This document shows positions 884-47,152 of a stretch of 64,000 nucleotides of DNA, piece by piece (within the stretch, counting starts at the first letter, position 1; the number at the start of each line of letters is the position of its first letter). The notes beneath the pieces were generated by a model, which was given only the letters and a program-made list of their open reading frames with translations, was not told where the DNA came from and did no database searches. The position numbers and the translations under genes were made by a program. This stretch comes from Erythrobacter sp. F6033 (GTDB lineage: Bacteria > Pseudomonadota > Alphaproteobacteria > Sphingomonadales > Sphingomonadaceae), in NCBI RefSeq assembly GCF_023016005.1, contig NZ_JALKAZ010000002.1, forward strand, positions 248,001-312,000, written 5' to 3'.

Positions 884-2884
884 TTAGACGCGCAGATCCG
901 GCGGGGTGGCTTCTGCATTGAGGAAGGCGACCGCCTCGTCCAGCGTCAGGACCTTCTGATCCTTTTCGCCCAATGTGCGCATCGTAACCTTGCCTTCTTC
1001 CTCTTCGCGCTTGCCGACCACAAGGATGTGCGGAACCTTCGCGAGGCTGTGTTCGCGCACCTTGTAGTTGATCTTTTCATTGCGAAGATCGCTCTTCACG
1101 CGAAGGCCCGCTGCGGTCAGCTTGGCTTCGACCTGCTCGGCATAGCCATCGATGTCGGACACGATGGGCGCGACAACGGCTTGGACGGGCGAAAGCCATA
1201 CCGGCAGACGGCCAGCATAGTGCTCGATCAGAATGCCGATAAAGCGCTCATACGATCCGAAGATCGCCCGGTGCAGCATGACGGGGCGATGCTTGCCGCC
1301 GTCTTCGCCGATATAGGTCGCATCCAAGCGTTCGGGTAGAACGCGGTCGGACTGGATCGTGCCAACCTGCCATGTCCGGCCAATCGCATCGGTCAGGTGC
1401 CATTCCAGCTTCGGCGCATAGAACGCGCCTTCGCCCGGCAGTTCTTCCCAGCCGAATTCTTCGGTCGCCATGCCTGCCTCTGCGACGGCATCGCGCAATT
1501 CCTGCTCGGCCTTGTCCCAATCCTCATCGGAACCGAAACGCTGCTCAGGACGGGTCGCGAGCTTGATTTCGTATTTGAAGCCGAAATCCTGATAAACGGC
1601 GTCGGCCATTTCACAGAACTTGCGCACTTCCTCGACCACCTGATTTTCGGTGCAGAAGATATGTGCATCATCCTGAGTGAACTGGCGCACCCGCATCAGG
1701 CCATGCAGCGCGCCATGCGGCTCGTTACGGTGGCAGCAGCCCATCTCGCCAAGGCGGATCGGCAGATCGCGATATGACGTGATGCCCTGTTTGAAGACGA
1801 GAACATGCGCGGGGCAGTTCATCGGTTTCAACGCCATCCAGTCGGCTTCGCCGCTGATAACAGGCCCGTCATCTTCGGTGTTGGGCACTTCGTCGGGGAT
1901 CACAAACATGTTCTCGCGGTATTTGCCCCAGTGGCCGGATTGCTCCCACTGGCGCGCATCCATGACCTGCGGTGTCTTGATCTCGCGGTAGCCGCCGCCA
2001 TCCATTTTGCGGCGCATATAGCTCTCAAGCTCGCGCCAGACGCGGTAGCCTTTCGGATGCCAGAACACACTGCCATGCGCGACATCGGAGAGGTGGAACA
2101 GGTCCATCTCTCGGCCGAGTTTACGGTGATCGCGCTTGGCCGCTTCTTCGAGCCGCATTAGGTGCTGGTTGAGCTGTTTCTTGTTGAGCCAGCCCGTGCC
2201 GTAAATACGCGTCAGCTGCGCATTTGCTTGGTCACCGCGCCAATATGCGCCCGCAACCCGCATCAGCTTGAACGCCTGCGGGTCGAGTTTCCCGGTGGAG
2301 GGCAGGTGCGGCCCGCGGCACATATCGAGCCAGTCATCGCCCGACCAATAGACCGTCAGTTCTTCGTTTTCGGGCAGTTCCTTGGCCCATTCGGCCTTAA
2401 ACGTTTCGCCTTCGGATTCCCATTTTTGGATCAGGGCCGCGCGTGACCAAGCCTCGCGCCGCAGCGGTTTGTCCGCCTTGATGATCTCGCGCATTTTCGC
2501 TTCGATATCGGGCAGGTCTTCGCTGCTGAACGGTTCGCGGCTGGCCGGTGCCATCACGTCGTAATAGAAGCCGTCATCGGTCGCTGGACCAAATGTGATT
2601 TGCGTGCCTGGATAGAGCGCCTGCACCGCCTCGGCGAGGACGTGGGCAAAATCGTGCCGCGCCAGTTCCAGCGCATCTTCCTCGTCCTTGGAGGTGATCA
2701 AAGCGAGCTCGCTGTCACCTTCAAATGGACGGCCAAGATCGCGCACCTCACCGTTTACACGCGCCGCGAGCGCGGCTTTCGCAAGGCCGGGGCCAATCGC
2801 AGCAGCGACATCAGCGGGAGTGCTGCCCGGCTCCATTTCGCGCACGGAGCCATCGGGCAGGCTGATCTTAAGCAGTTCGGTCAT
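884..2884 (-). CDS. thrS: Threonyl-tRNA synthetase
   Basis: ThrRS charges tRNA-Thr in the cytoplasm. The 666-residue product has the full family layout: an N-terminal TGS domain (about 1-64), the editing domain with an HxxxH motif (HDFAHVLAE, about residue 75), the class II catalytic core with the zinc-site segment PMNCPAHVLVF (about residue 345) and a C-terminal anticodon-binding domain ending in the KVPHILVVG region. The start at 2884 gives MTELLKISLPDG and follows a GGAAG ribosome-binding site. An upstream in-frame ATG at 2926 would add 14 non-conserved residues. A threonine-codon leader lies 140 bases upstream, so charging of tRNA-Thr probably controls expression. Confidence 0.97.
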   Translation of the reverse strand: MTELLKISLPDGSVREMEPGSTPADVAAAIGPGLAKAALAARVNGEVRDLGRPFEGDSELALITSKDEEDALELARHDFAHVLAEAVQALYPGTQITFGPATDDGFYYDVMAPASREPFSSEDLPDIEAKMREIIKADKPLRREAWSRAALIQKWESEGETFKAEWAKELPENEELTVYWSGDDWLDMCRGPHLPSTGKLDPQAFKLMRVAGAYWRGDQANAQLTRIYGTGWLNKKQLNQHLMRLEEAAKRDHRKLGREMDLFHLSDVAHGSVFWHPKGYRVWRELESYMRRKMDGGGYREIKTPQVMDARQWEQSGHWGKYRENMFVIPDEVPNTEDDGPVISGEADWMALKPMNCPAHVLVFKQGITSYRDLPIRLGEMGCCHRNEPHGALHGLMRVRQFTQDDAHIFCTENQVVEEVRKFCEMADAVYQDFGFKYEIKLATRPEQRFGSDEDWDKAEQELRDAVAEAGMATEEFGWEELPGEGAFYAPKLEWHLTDAIGRTWQVGTIQSDRVLPERLDATYIGEDGGKHRPVMLHRAIFGSYERFIGILIEHYAGRLPVWLSPVQAVVAPIVSDIDGYAEQVEAKLTAAGLRVKSDLRNEKINYKVREHSLAKVPHILVVGKREEEEGKVTMRTLGEKDQKVLTLDEAVAFLNAEATPPDLRV

Positions 2885-2976
2885 TGTTCTTCCGTCTCGT
2901 TTCCCTTGCGCCCATGGCACACTCATGCACGCGCTTGAAGAGAGGTGCCTTGATATTTCCAGATTTCAGGAAGCTG

Positions 2977-3059
2977 ACACCGCGCCGCCCGAAACCGGTA
3001 GTCCGGGGCGCGGGTGTGGCTGGGTCAGACCAACAGCAACCGGCCCCGGAAAACCGGGG
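2977..3059 (-). promoter_or_regulatory. Predicted threonine-responsive attenuator of thrS
   Basis: On the minus strand four segments can form alternative stems. Segment 1, CCCCGG (3059-3054), pairs with segment 2, CCGGGG (3049-3044), across a TTTT loop. Segment 2, extended to CCGGGGC (3049-3043), can instead pair with segment 3, GCCCCGG (3009-3003). Segment 3 region 3017-3007 otherwise pairs with segment 4, GGCGCGGTGT (2986-2977), over 10 base pairs with one bulged C. The 2:3 and 3:4 stems exclude each other, as in classical amino-acid attenuators. The 3:4 stem is not followed by a clear U run, so how it would stop expression is uncertain. Confidence 0.55.
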
Positions 3060-3096
3060 TGGTGGTAGTGGTGGTGGTCGTCACACGGTTGGCCAT
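3025..3096 (-). CDS. Threonine-rich leader peptide upstream of thrS
   Basis: A 23-codon frame begins at ATG 3096-3094. It contains eight threonine codons in a row at 3081-3058 (ACG, three ACC, ACT, three ACC), then Pro-Val-Phe-Arg-Gly-Arg-Leu-Leu-Leu-Val and TGA at 3027-3025. It lies 140 bases before thrS on the same strand. The first stem of the predicted attenuator starts inside the last threonine codon, so a ribosome stalled for lack of Thr-tRNA would mask it. No good ribosome-binding site precedes the ATG. In-frame alternatives are GTG 3132, GTG 3168 and ATG 3177. The use of thr leaders in proteobacteria is established; this one is inferred. Confidence 0.55.
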   Translation of the reverse strand: MANRVTTTTTTTTPVFRGRLLLV

Positions 3097-3191
3097 GGCC
3101 AGCGAGATAGCGATGCGCGGCGCGGTTGTCACCCACCCAGCACACGAGCGCCACAAAACGGAAAGCACCCGCTCCATATTGGAAAGTTAGC

Positions 3192-3217
3192 TTGACATTC
3201 ATGCGAATCAATGACAA
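3192..3217. promoter_or_regulatory. Imperfect palindrome before the membrane-protein/regulator operon
   Basis: TTGACATT (3192-3199) and AATGACAA (3210-3217) form an inverted repeat with 7 of 8 pairs and a 10-base centre. The left arm contains a -35-like TTGACA. A second small palindrome, CTTTC...GAAAG (3223-3239), follows, and then a further CTTTC. The site lies 35 bases before the small membrane protein gene whose operon encodes a Cro/C1-type regulator, so autoregulation is plausible. No convincing -10 element is visible. Confidence 0.3.
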
Positions 3218-3251
3218 GTGTGCTTTCCATAAGTGAAAGGGAGCTTTCCGA

Positions 3252-3428
3252 ATGACACGTACAACACAAGCATTGATCTGGGCCGCGATCATCATCGCAG
3301 CCGCGCTGATCTCCGCCTCTTATGGACTGAGCAATGCCGCTAGCTTTGGCATTATTTCCGGTCTCAGCGGCGCAGCATGGGGCTCGCTCCAAGCGGACTC
3401 GCCTTGTGTACGGGGATGCTTGCAATGA
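3252..3428 (+). CDS. Small hydrophobic membrane protein, first gene of a three-gene module
   Basis: This 58-residue frame starts at ATG 3252 after a good ribosome-binding site (AGGGAG, 8 bases upstream). It encodes a hydrophobic helix at about residues 8-28, a glycine- and alanine-rich second segment at about 32-48, and a short tail with two cysteines. Its stop overlaps the start of the next membrane protein in the ATGA arrangement, and that gene in turn overlaps an HTH regulator. The tight coupling, not similarity, is the main support. The function is unknown. Confidence 0.6.
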   Translation: MTRTTQALIWAAIIIAAALISASYGLSNAASFGIISGLSGAAWGSLQADSPCVRGCLQ

Positions 3429-4036
3429 GCGGTGCCCGGACTCAAACAAAGTGCAAACCCGTCTTGCCGTGGTTTGTCGTCTTCTTCGCCTTTCTGATCG
3501 GTTCTTTGGTCGCAATCGATTTGCTTGACGTGAAAAACCCGCTGATCGCCAACGGCTTGATCCTGCTTTCAATGATCCCTCTTGCGAAGGCCGGGCTGAA
3601 TGCCTCTGCCAATGCCGCTTCACGCGGAGAGGTGGGCAATGCAACGCGCAATTACCTGATCCGTATGTTGGTGGTCAGCGTTGCCTATATCGGGGCGGTT
3701 TTCGCAGCGAGCCAATTGATTGACGATGGCGATCCGGTGACCGTTCTAAGCGTGATCATTGCGCTGGTTCCGGGCCTTGCGATTGCGCTCTATTTCTGGG
3801 CGATGGGCAAGTATCTGGCCGAGCAGCAGGATGAGTTCTTGCGAATGCTGATGGTTCGCCAGGCGCTCATCGCGACCGCGATTGCCTTTTCTGCCGCAGC
3901 GATCTGGGGCTTTCTCGAAAGCTTTGGCCAAGTCCCCCACATTGACGCGTATTGGTGGCCCATAGTCTGGTTCTTGGGGATCGGCATCGGCGCAATCTTC
4001 AACAAAGTTCAATATGGAACCGTCGGAGAGCTTTGA
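3425..4036 (+). CDS. Multi-pass membrane protein of unknown function
   Basis: This product of 203 residues has five or six predicted membrane helices, including LPWFVVFFAFLIGSLVAIDLL near the N-terminus, a pair of helices near residues 75-120 and a C-terminal pair around residues 150-195. The start at 3425 overlaps the stop of the upstream small protein (ATGA). The frame is open further, to ATG 3377, but that would lie deep inside the upstream gene. The stop overlaps the start of the HTH gene. Small Cro/C1-type regulators of this kind are often paired with uncharacterised membrane proteins, so the two may act in one circuit. No family is recognised with certainty. Confidence 0.75.
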   Translation: MSGARTQTKCKPVLPWFVVFFAFLIGSLVAIDLLDVKNPLIANGLILLSMIPLAKAGLNASANAASRGEVGNATRNYLIRMLVVSVAYIGAVFAASQLIDDGDPVTVLSVIIALVPGLAIALYFWAMGKYLAEQQDEFLRMLMVRQALIATAIAFSAAAIWGFLESFGQVPHIDAYWWPIVWFLGIGIGAIFNKVQYGTVGEL

Positions 4037-4227
4037 TGAACAACCGCCTCAAAGTGCTCCGCGCCGAGCGGGACTGGTCGCAGCAGGATCTGGCTGAACG
4101 ACTCGGCGTGAGCCGCCAGAGTGTGAATGCGATTGAAAAGGGCCGCTATGACCCGTCGCTTCCGCTGGCCTTCACGATCTCCGAAACCTTCGGCTTACCC
4201 ATCGAAGAAATCTTCAGCCGCGACTGA
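4036..4227 (+). CDS. Small Cro/C1-type (XRE) transcriptional regulator
   Basis: This encodes 63 residues that are essentially one helix-turn-helix domain. The recognition segment is QQDLAERLGVSRQSVNAIEKG (about residues 17-37), followed by the YDPSLPLAFTISETFGLPIEEIF pattern of the YozG-like stand-alone XRE regulators. Its start codon shares an A with the stop of the upstream membrane protein, so translation is probably coupled. The likely targets are its own operon and the palindromes around 3192-3239, but that is inference. It ends 4 bases before the convergent phoD gene. Confidence 0.9.
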   Translation: MNNRLKVLRAERDWSQQDLAERLGVSRQSVNAIEKGRYDPSLPLAFTISETFGLPIEEIFSRD

Positions 4228-45262: not shown

Positions 45263-47152
45263 ATGGACAATCTGCGGGGTACTTTTGATTCCAGCGATCC
45301 GATCGGCAACGATCAGGACTGGGATGCCCACGAAGACGAGGTGGCGCGCGAATTGCCGCCCGAAGCAATCGGCCAGGATGAGCGCCGTATGCAAGTGCGC
45401 GCTTATAATCACTGGGCCAGCCTGCTTGCCGATAACAGCTTTCCTTCGATCGAAGATCTTGAGCCGCACAATCTCCATGATTTCGGCCCGAACAGCGTGC
45501 TGCTCGATTTTTCTGCTGGCGTTGAAGACCCCGCCGTTCAGTATCTGGGGGACCAGCTTGCTGAAGAATGCGGCACAGACGGATCGATCAAACAGCTGTC
45601 AGACGTGCCGCCGCGCTCTTTGTTGAGCCGGATTACCGATCACTATATGCAGATCCTCGCCAATCAGGCGCCAATCGGCTTCGAAGCGGAATTCGTGAAC
45701 CAGCGCGGTTCCTCGATCATGTATCGCGGTATCCTGCTGCCATTTTCGAGCGACGATGAAACCATCGATTTCATCTATGGCGTGATCAATTGGAAAGAAA
45801 TCGCGGACCAGGTCACTTCGGACGAATTGCTGCTTGAAATCGATCAAGCACTCGAAGCAAGCGACGAGCCAGCCGAAGATGAAGACGAACCGCAAAAGCA
45901 TCATGCCGATCAGCTTGTCGACGCACCCAGCGCCGACATTTTTGAACTCGGGGCAGAAGCCGAAATTTCTGAAGAAGCCCCGGCATTTGAGCCAGAGTTC
46001 AGCGACAATGTCGCCTCGCTTAGCGGCGACTATGAAAGCCCCAAAGACGAGAACGATCTGCCGCTTCCCGACTTCGGGCAATATTCGCTTGACGATCCTG
46101 ATGATGAGGAAGACGAAGAAGAAAGCGATGCAGGATACAGCTTCGCTTCCCTATCGGACTACATCGAAACGCCTACCAAAAAGGCAGTCGACCTCGAAGC
46201 AGATCATTTTGATGCTGCGGACTATCAGGCCGAGTACAACGATGACGTGCCTGAGAGTGATGACAGCGAATTCTCGGACTACGCACCGCTTTCCGATGAG
46301 ATTGCGGAAGAGGACACTCCGGCTGAACCCAAAGCGAAAATGCCGATCGACCTCGGCAGCTTTGGCGAGCCAGAAGAATTCAGCGAACCTTCTATTGAAG
46401 AAGTGAGCGAGATCGAAGAGCCTGTCAGCGAACCGCTTTACGACGAAGAAGAAGCGGTGGAAGAAGAGAGCTTCGTTGCCGAGCAACCTGCTCCTGAACC
46501 GATCGATGTCCCAGCGGCTCCCGACATTAACGACGAGCTTGGCGAAAATGCCGACCTGTATGATTTCCTCGCGGCCGCACGTGAGCTTGCACAGTCGGCA
46601 AATGTTGCGGAAGATCGCAGCCGCACCGCGCTCTATAGCGCCGTTGGCCGCGCCTATGACTTCTCGCTAGCCGCGAAAGCCGCGCCTGAGGAATATAACG
46701 AACTGCTCGAAGAGAGCGGCCTGAGTGTTCAGGATCGCGCGCCGATGACCCCGGTCGTCAAGCTCGTGTTTGGCAGCAATTACGACAAGACCCGCCTGAC
46801 CGAATATGCTGCCGTTCTGGCGCATGCTCACCGCCATGAAATGGAAAGCGGATCGCTCGCAGAATTCCTGGAGAACGCCGATGGCGGTCTTAAAGGTGTC
46901 GTCGCGGCAGAACGCCGTCTGCGCCGCGAGGAAGCAGGCAAAGAAGTCGAGGCAGCCGATGAAGTCCGCCGCGCGCTCGCCAAGAAACTGCGCGAGTTGG
47001 AGGAGCTGACATTTGAGGCTCTGTCTGGCGACGGTGCAGAATTCTCGCTCGTCGTGGTACGCCGCGATGGCGCTGGCAACGTGTCCATGATCGGCGAAAT
47101 CGATGACGATATTCCGATGATTGAACGCGCTGCCAGAAAGCTCGTCGGCTAA
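45263..47152 (+). CDS. Long acidic protein with an N-terminal PAS-type domain
   Basis: The product has 629 residues. The first about 190 form a PAS-like domain (RMQVRAYNHWASLLADNSFPS...VQYLGDQLAEECG...IYGVINWKEIA), comparable to the PAS_5 type. Residues 195-440 are a low-complexity acidic stretch with runs of D and E, with repeats of the SDY/LSDE kind, and probably disordered. Residues 445-629 are helical and end in a basic-acidic coiled coil. No catalytic domain is seen. It may be a scaffold or a signal-responsive regulator. It stands alone after the DUF2141 gene. Confidence 0.7.
   Translation: MDNLRGTFDSSDPIGNDQDWDAHEDEVARELPPEAIGQDERRMQVRAYNHWASLLADNSFPSIEDLEPHNLHDFGPNSVLLDFSAGVEDPAVQYLGDQLAEECGTDGSIKQLSDVPPRSLLSRITDHYMQILANQAPIGFEAEFVNQRGSSIMYRGILLPFSSDDETIDFIYGVINWKEIADQVTSDELLLEIDQALEASDEPAEDEDEPQKHHADQLVDAPSADIFELGAEAEISEEAPAFEPEFSDNVASLSGDYESPKDENDLPLPDFGQYSLDDPDDEEDEEESDAGYSFASLSDYIETPTKKAVDLEADHFDAADYQAEYNDDVPESDDSEFSDYAPLSDEIAEEDTPAEPKAKMPIDLGSFGEPEEFSEPSIEEVSEIEEPVSEPLYDEEEAVEEESFVAEQPAPEPIDVPAAPDINDELGENADLYDFLAAARELAQSANVAEDRSRTALYSAVGRAYDFSLAAKAAPEEYNELLEESGLSVQDRAPMTPVVKLVFGSNYDKTRLTEYAAVLAHAHRHEMESGSLAEFLENADGGLKGVVAAERRLRREEAGKEVEAADEVRRALAKKLRELEELTFEALSGDGAEFSLVVVRRDGAGNVSMIGEIDDDIPMIERAARKLVG

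Follow-up and report, generated by a model that had tools for sequence, protein, structure and literature searches.

A conserved threonine-codon leader of thrS in Erythrobacter, very likely acting in the manner of a ribosome-mediated attenuator

The threonyl-tRNA synthetase gene thrS of Erythrobacter sp. F6033 is preceded by a short open reading frame (ORF) with eight threonine codons in tandem. Both lie on the minus strand of a 64,000-nucleotide (nt) stretch of contig NZ_JALKAZ010000002.1 (positions 248,001 to 312,000), referred to here as the window. Our analysis indicates that the ORF is a real, conserved Thr-codon leader of thrS and that it very likely works like a ribosome-mediated attenuator. 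That the whole constitutes a ribosome-mediated threonine attenuator of thrS appears quite probable to us. The leader itself, the conservation of its Thr codons and a promoter-like spacing in front of it are features of the DNA, and the computed folding of the transcript is consistent with a switch. A preliminary description of the same DNA had reported a short minus-strand frame with eight Thr codons ending 140 bases before thrS, and these coordinates were verified: the leader stop and the thrS ATG at 2884 are separated by 140 nt (Table 1).

Table 1. Positions of the leader, its control elements and thrS in the window
Feature	Positions	Strand	Remarks
thrS, threonyl-tRNA synthetase	884..2884	minus	Pfam TGS, tRNA_SAD, tRNA-synt_2b, HGTP_anticodon
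-35-like box of the leader promoter	3132-3127	minus	GTGACA; from sequence and spacing in relatives
-10-like box	3110-3104	minus	CTATCTC; spaced 16-17 nt from the -35 box and 7-8 nt from the ATG
Leader ORF	3096-3025	minus	23 codons, MANRVTTTTTTTTPVFRGRLLLV, stop TGA; probably leaderless
Sensor, eight Thr codons in tandem	3081-3058	minus	ACG ACC ACC ACC ACT ACC ACC ACC
Segment 1	3059-3054	minus	CCCCGG; starts within the last Thr codon; possible partner of segment 2
Segment 2	3049-3040	minus	CCGGGGCCGG; lies in the FRGR codons of the leader; hardly varies across the genus alignment
Segment 3	3014-2995	minus	CCCGCGCCCCGGACTACCGG; pairs with 2 (antiterminator) or 4
Segment 4	2994-2980	minus	TTTCGGGCGGCGCGG; 3:4 is a terminator-like hairpin without a U-tract
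Segment 4t	2981-2976	minus	GGTGTC; just 3' of segment 4
Segment 5	2970-2964	minus	CCTGAAA; can pair with TTTCGGG 2994-2988
Segment 6	2949-2944	minus	GGCACC; partner of 4t
Conserved 6:7 stretch	2949-2930	minus	CUUC motif; kept in L005 and L013, both without the leader

A Thr run of this length exceeds chance. Only four runs of at least six identical residues occur in the six frames of the window, one of them being the antisense reading of the Thr run. Across the 3.04-Mb genome, runs of six ACN codons are confined to the leader and two other sites; one of these falls in a proline-rich linker and the other in a long open frame, and neither is a short leader. By this search no second Thr leader was found in the genome. 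A separate observation is that eight identical Ser residues stand in tandem on the minus strand at 46099-46122.

The decisive evidence is the conservation of the Thr codons with change at their third positions. A leader was counted when an ATG-initiated ORF of 16-30 residues had at least four Thr within 10 codons and lay at -240 to -180 of thrS. Among 61 genomes of the same genus, 56 gave a thrS match and 50 of these upstream regions were read; the leader was present in 43. For the family, 149 genomes were searched (the source genome and two others of the genus included) and 87 further loci were read, taken as the best matches first plus a hand-picked part of the rest and hence not a random sample; 44 of them had the leader. 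By contrast with these counts, none of 20 loci read from other families of the order (118 genomes) met this definition. Three of the seven same-genus misses keep a Thr-rich leader, which is displaced, in a longer frame or beside a deletion (L048, L043, L033). In a second set of 80 loci, which shares several genomes with the first, 68 passed a somewhat looser rule, or 67 once the spurious L201 is removed. The leader-bearing loci of that set include Erythrobacter, Qipengyuania, Croceicoccus, Altererythrobacter, Pontixanthobacter and Pelagerythrobacter; at three Aurantiacibacter loci (L188, L203, L214) the Thr leader is absent. The 87 leaders compared below carry 4-13 Thr (median 8), and 44 of them are 23 codons long. 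The Thr run thus turned out to be conserved upstream of thrS in relatives; its absence from them would have spoken against the preliminary description.

Substitutions were compared by codon position in 205 pairs of leaders of equal length and 75% identity or more, the pairs not being independent of one another. In codons where either member has Thr, differences at positions 1, 2 and 3 numbered 192, 212 and 698, vs. 564, 501 and 509 in all other leader codons. Since the third-position pile-up is confined to Thr codons, it is the Thr codons that are kept and not a peptide; by the same measure the rest of the ORF bears no sign of peptide constraint. None of the 87 leaders uses a single Thr codon throughout. 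A short Thr-enriched ORF, as an attenuator needs, therefore stands before thrS, and the codon-position bias suggests that it is translated.

This pattern bears on two alternatives. In one, the Thr-rich peptide would itself be functional, acting in trans or as an arrest peptide. The peTrpL peptide of Sinorhizobium meliloti is a precedent for a leaderless leader peptide acting in trans (PMC7298713), but the codon positions outside the Thr codons change about equally here, with no sign of peptide upkeep beyond Thr, and we consider a functional peptide very improbable. The other, a functionless triplet-repeat accident, has in its favour that ACC repeats arise easily in GC-rich DNA and that some relatives lack the run; it is already contradicted by the codon-position counts, and the mixed Thr codons in 87/87 leaders, the fixed place before thrS and the fixed promoter-like spacing make its probability negligible.

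From the boxes upstream of the leader, transcription is predicted to start on the A of the leader ATG (3096) or beside it. A [CT]TA[TG] motif starting 13-17 nt before the ATG is found in 75 of the 87 leaders, TGAN at -33 to -39 in 77, and both together in 71; shuffled upstream regions have both in a mean of 0.36 and a maximum of 3 of 87. This spacing suggests a start at the ATG, so the leader is probably leaderless. Tetramers resembling a Shine-Dalgarno (SD) sequence are rare, both before the leader ATG (6/87) and before thrS (7/87). The missing ribosome-binding site, noted earlier as a weak point, is real, yet leaderless initiation, as in S. meliloti trpL, would explain it, so that the absence stands and its reading as a weakness need not. 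A start downstream of 3025, which the preliminary description named as grounds for refutation, is not what the promoter-like spacing predicts. In the source genome, among the places where the promoter-ATG spacing occurs, a Thr-rich ORF follows only at the present leader.

The RNA segments allow alternative pairings. CCGGGG at 3049-3044 is the partner of CCCCGG at 3059-3054, and GCCCCGG at 3009-3003 is its alternative partner; both pairings were placed correctly in the preliminary description. The 10-bp stem given there for 3017-3007/2986-2977 exists as a stem, but on our reading consists of about nine pairs with a bulged C. Segment 3 carries a small insertion in the window and in some relatives, and 4:5 excludes 3:4 through a shared GGG. 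Folding of the window RNA predicted 2:3 plus 4:5 (TTTCGGG/CCTGAAA) whichever of the eight Thr codons the ribosome occupied, and 3:4 once it stood at the leader stop. The probability of 3:4 was 0.72 for a ribosome at the stop, averaged 0.00 across the Thr codons and was 0.21 in RNA free of ribosomes. Under a cut-off that we set ourselves (3:4 above 0.5 at the stop and a drop of more than 0.5 on Thr), 50 of 87 relatives behave as switches vs. 88 of 435 shuffled controls. In silico, then, the stems appear mutually exclusive and governed by ribosome position, which lends modelled support, in the window and in these 50 relatives, to the 1:2, 2:3, 3:4 logic proposed earlier.

We infer the following mechanism, and with it the start site, the stalling, which way control runs and a termination at 3:4 or beyond. 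Transcription would begin at the leader ATG, and ribosomes would initiate on the leaderless 5' end. If Thr-tRNA is plentiful, the ribosome would reach the leader stop and cover segment 2, 3:4 would form, and less transcription would proceed into thrS. If Thr-tRNA is short, the ribosome would stall in the Thr run, so that 2 would pair with 3 and 3:4 would be blocked; segment 4 may pair with 5 instead during the stall, and RNA polymerase would continue into thrS.

The stems were also examined for compensatory change. RNAalifold on the genus alignment gave 17 pairs, only two with double changes; MAFFT mis-registers segments 4t and 6 in this alignment. One 3:4 pair is exchanged from G-C to A-U in 10 of the 43 genus sequences. 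In a G-test with average product correction (APC), four of the ten top column pairs belong to 3:4, 4:5 or 4t:6. Co-changes were then counted for 16 pairs of these three helices on a tree built from thrS coding DNA only. One 4t:6 pair had 8 co-changes vs. 1.8 expected, with 7 kept paired (P = 0.0005); one of six tested 4:5 pairs had 6 vs. 1.2, with 5 kept (P = 0.002); and one 3:4 pair had 8 vs. 2.3, with 6 kept (P = 0.0025). A second 4t:6 pair reached P = 0.02, and the other 12 of the 16 had P >0.05. Of 11,375 column pairs tested, 181 have three or more pair-keeping co-changes; in this set the three best helix pairs rank 2, 6 and 8, and the remaining pairs of the first eight are part of no named helix. 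By a fixed rule, all five 4t:6 pairs form in 53/87 sequences, and 4t pairs with its own partner in 66% of cases vs. 46% with a swapped partner (80 sequences). Helices 4:5 and 4t:6, first noticed on the same data used to test them, are likely to form and may be further switch elements. The search for compensatory changes suggested in the preliminary description thus had a mixed outcome: a few pairs co-change on the thrS tree, and a null simulated on a tree was not beaten.

Thr-rich leaders appear to recur at thrS in three other sampled alphaproteobacterial families (f48, f61, f62). In a class sample of 153 genomes, from which 80 thrS upstream regions were read, an ORF with at least five Thr in 10 codons was found in three (L258, L261, L296), and reverse-strand reading of the 80 gave none; lowering the threshold to four Thr changed the counts to six and one. 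In the family of L261 (f61), seven of eight loci examined (L323-L328 and L330) have a Thr leader (e.g., MTARTTTTATTTRTSCGGP) and a hairpin followed by six T before thrS, a textbook terminator. With the ribosome on some, though not all, Thr codons, the predicted probability of this terminator falls to 0.08 or less in six of the seven, and only to 0.40 in L330. In f62, where 25 of 40 matching loci were read, a leader ORF containing four or more Thr in 10 codons precedes thrS in 14. Judged by eye, these also have a promoter spacing resembling that of leaderless transcripts and a hairpin, GGCCGGG/CCCGGCC, that no U-tract follows. In f48, two of 20 loci read (of 26 matches) have a Thr leader. At L298-L322, in a third family, the best short ORF ends in RT plus stop in 24 of 25 loci, several having few Thr codons.

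A number of results weigh against a ribosome-mediated attenuator at thrS. The leader is lacking by our definition in 43 of the 87 other same-family loci read, and within the genus L004, L005, L012 and L013 are without it; L033 keeps the leader and, by eye, is without the stretch from 3:4 to 6:7. The switch cut-off is missed by 37 of 87 relatives. The 3:4 stretch exceeds its shuffles only slightly in stability (medians of -25.8 and -23.4 kcal/mol), and folding of the whole 217-nt region, a check suggested earlier, gave no support against dinucleotide shuffles (z = -0.53, 58 of 200 shuffles as good or better). Against a null simulated on the leader's own tree, no base pair shows significant covariation (best E about 2). 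A scan of 2600-3600 for a strict sigma-70 consensus yielded no promoter, and the promoter-ATG spacing pattern has 15 matches in the source genome, i.e., 14 besides the leader (3 in a read-backwards control). Finally, the U-tract expected after 3:4 is absent in 87/87 leaders, a weak point already noted in the preliminary description and a real one. The richest 8-nt stretch within 18 nt after 3:4 has at most 5 U, mostly 3-4: 5 U in 4 leaders, 4 in 34, 3 in 38, 2 in 10 and 1 in 1. Of the two parts of an intrinsic terminator, the G+C-rich hairpin is predicted and the U-tract is missing throughout. We therefore say that the element works like an attenuator; its termination step may be intrinsic, Rho-dependent or other. 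A terminator scan also flagged the 1:2 hairpin (3057-3040) followed by TTGCTGTTGG; it was given no weight, as the scan returned 3 sites vs. 1.2 in shuffles.

The exit could possibly be intrinsic termination on a degenerate tract, or Rho. Another alternative accepts that stalling senses Thr and places the output elsewhere: Rho or a nuclease would act on the free C-rich, G-poor stretch after 3:4, which 2:3 and 4:5 would mask when Thr is short, with 4t:6 and 6:7 acting in read-through RNA. The lack of a U-tract fits this, as do the co-changing pairs of 4:5 and 4t:6. In raw composition, the 48 nt that follow 4t are on average 40% C and 21% G (29% and 19% in the window), with C exceeding G in 86/87, and at least seven of the next nine nt are pyrimidines in 71/87. 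Segment 6 lies beyond 3:4, so 4t:6 would matter only in read-through RNA. On the other side, no rut consensus exists, most pairs of the helices show no excess of co-change beside the unbeaten null and their discovery on the test data, and f61 uses a plain terminator. We hold this alternative to be possible, tentatively. The switch may thus be larger than four segments and its exit other than a canonical intrinsic terminator. A further elaboration is a leaderless multi-segment relay of 1:2, 3:4 and 4t:6 vs. 2:3, 4:5 and 6:7 with a C-rich exit. Here Rho or another factor would replace the U-tract, exits would differ among alphaproteobacteria (U6 in f61, none in Erythrobacter), and Thr-sensing would have arisen several times; taken together this is rather unlikely.

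Escherichia coli thrS is the model for another alternative, in which ThrRS (the synthetase itself) regulates its own synthesis at an operator in the 5' untranslated region (UTR) and the short ORF is incidental. The conserved 6:7 stretch, which outlives the loss of the leader in L005 and L013, favours such an operator. It leaves a conserved Thr-codon run with third-position change unexplained, and we judge it improbable. The hairpin before thrS was also considered as a ThrRS site resembling an anticodon, and this was set aside: the loop varies (TGTG, TGTC, TCTG, TATG), whereas a Thr anticodon would be constant. Among natural variants, by eye, L004 and L005 keep the promoter-like stretch and have lost the leader and 3:4, while 6:7 is kept in L005 and L013. 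Together with L033, this indicates that the attenuator can be lost and that 6:7 probably has a role of its own.

Among known systems, the enterobacterial thrL-thrABC attenuator likewise has a Thr-rich leader and alternative stems; it differs in controlling biosynthesis and in having Ile codons too, an SD sequence and a U-tract. The E. coli thrS operator and the Firmicutes thrS T-box likewise raise the supply of ThrRS when Thr-tRNA is short. The former works by binding of ThrRS to the operator and the latter by direct tRNA binding, neither with a leader peptide. No Rfam match, T-box included, was obtained in the window at the gathering threshold, nor for 2850-3200 at E up to 1. Self-regulation by ThrRS is mentioned in PMC2965389.

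The preliminary description knew of no Thr leader at an alphaproteobacterial thrS, and literature searches, with subscription papers outside their reach, found no such report either. A leaderless Thr leader is, however, annotated at thrS (thrL-thrS) from RNA-seq in Streptomyces lividans TK24 (PMC8079986). It resembles the present one as a leaderless leader peptide with Thr codons directly 5' of thrS and one hairpin without a U-rich tract. It differs in belonging to an actinobacterium, in having 18 residues with only two Thr, and in resting on RNA-seq, with no alternative pairing or conservation described in the available part of that source (PMC8079986). The trpL/rnTrpL leader of trpE(G) in S. 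meliloti is alphaproteobacterial, starts at the leader ATG and works by ribosome-dependent attenuation; unlike ours it has Trp codons, a biosynthetic gene and a terminator yielding the small RNA rnTrpL (PMC7298713, PMC10117765). Caulobacter crescentus has a leader coding sequence at an aminoacyl-tRNA synthetase gene, trpS, and an ilvBN leader, neither at thrS (PMC4117421); 'thrS' and 'threonine' do not occur in the text of that paper. The S. meliloti small ORF SEP5, whose translation has been shown, is a suggested leader peptide in a 5' UTR with six Thr codons. It lies upstream of an aspartate dehydrogenase gene and has three Lys codons too, and no alternative stems are described in the accessible text (PMC10117765).

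Should the attenuator reading hold, a leader peptide would carry at least part of the charged-tRNA feedback on thrS in Erythrobacter and its relatives. A compact, probably leaderless attenuator free of a U-tract would make the exit step directly testable in a GC-rich alphaproteobacterium, and natural deletion variants are available for comparison with the intact form.

Two features flank the locus. A TauE/SafE exporter gene (120-866) lies 17 nt after thrS in the same orientation and may be controlled together with it. Upstream of the leader, an inverted repeat GGAAAG...CTTTCC with CTTGTCA/TGTCAAG inside (3181-3228) is possibly an operator. It is present also in relatives whose locus is without the Thr leader, e.g., L004, and is located near an HTH_3 regulator gene (4036-4227, plus strand) and a gene for a protein without a Pfam match (3377-4036, plus strand).

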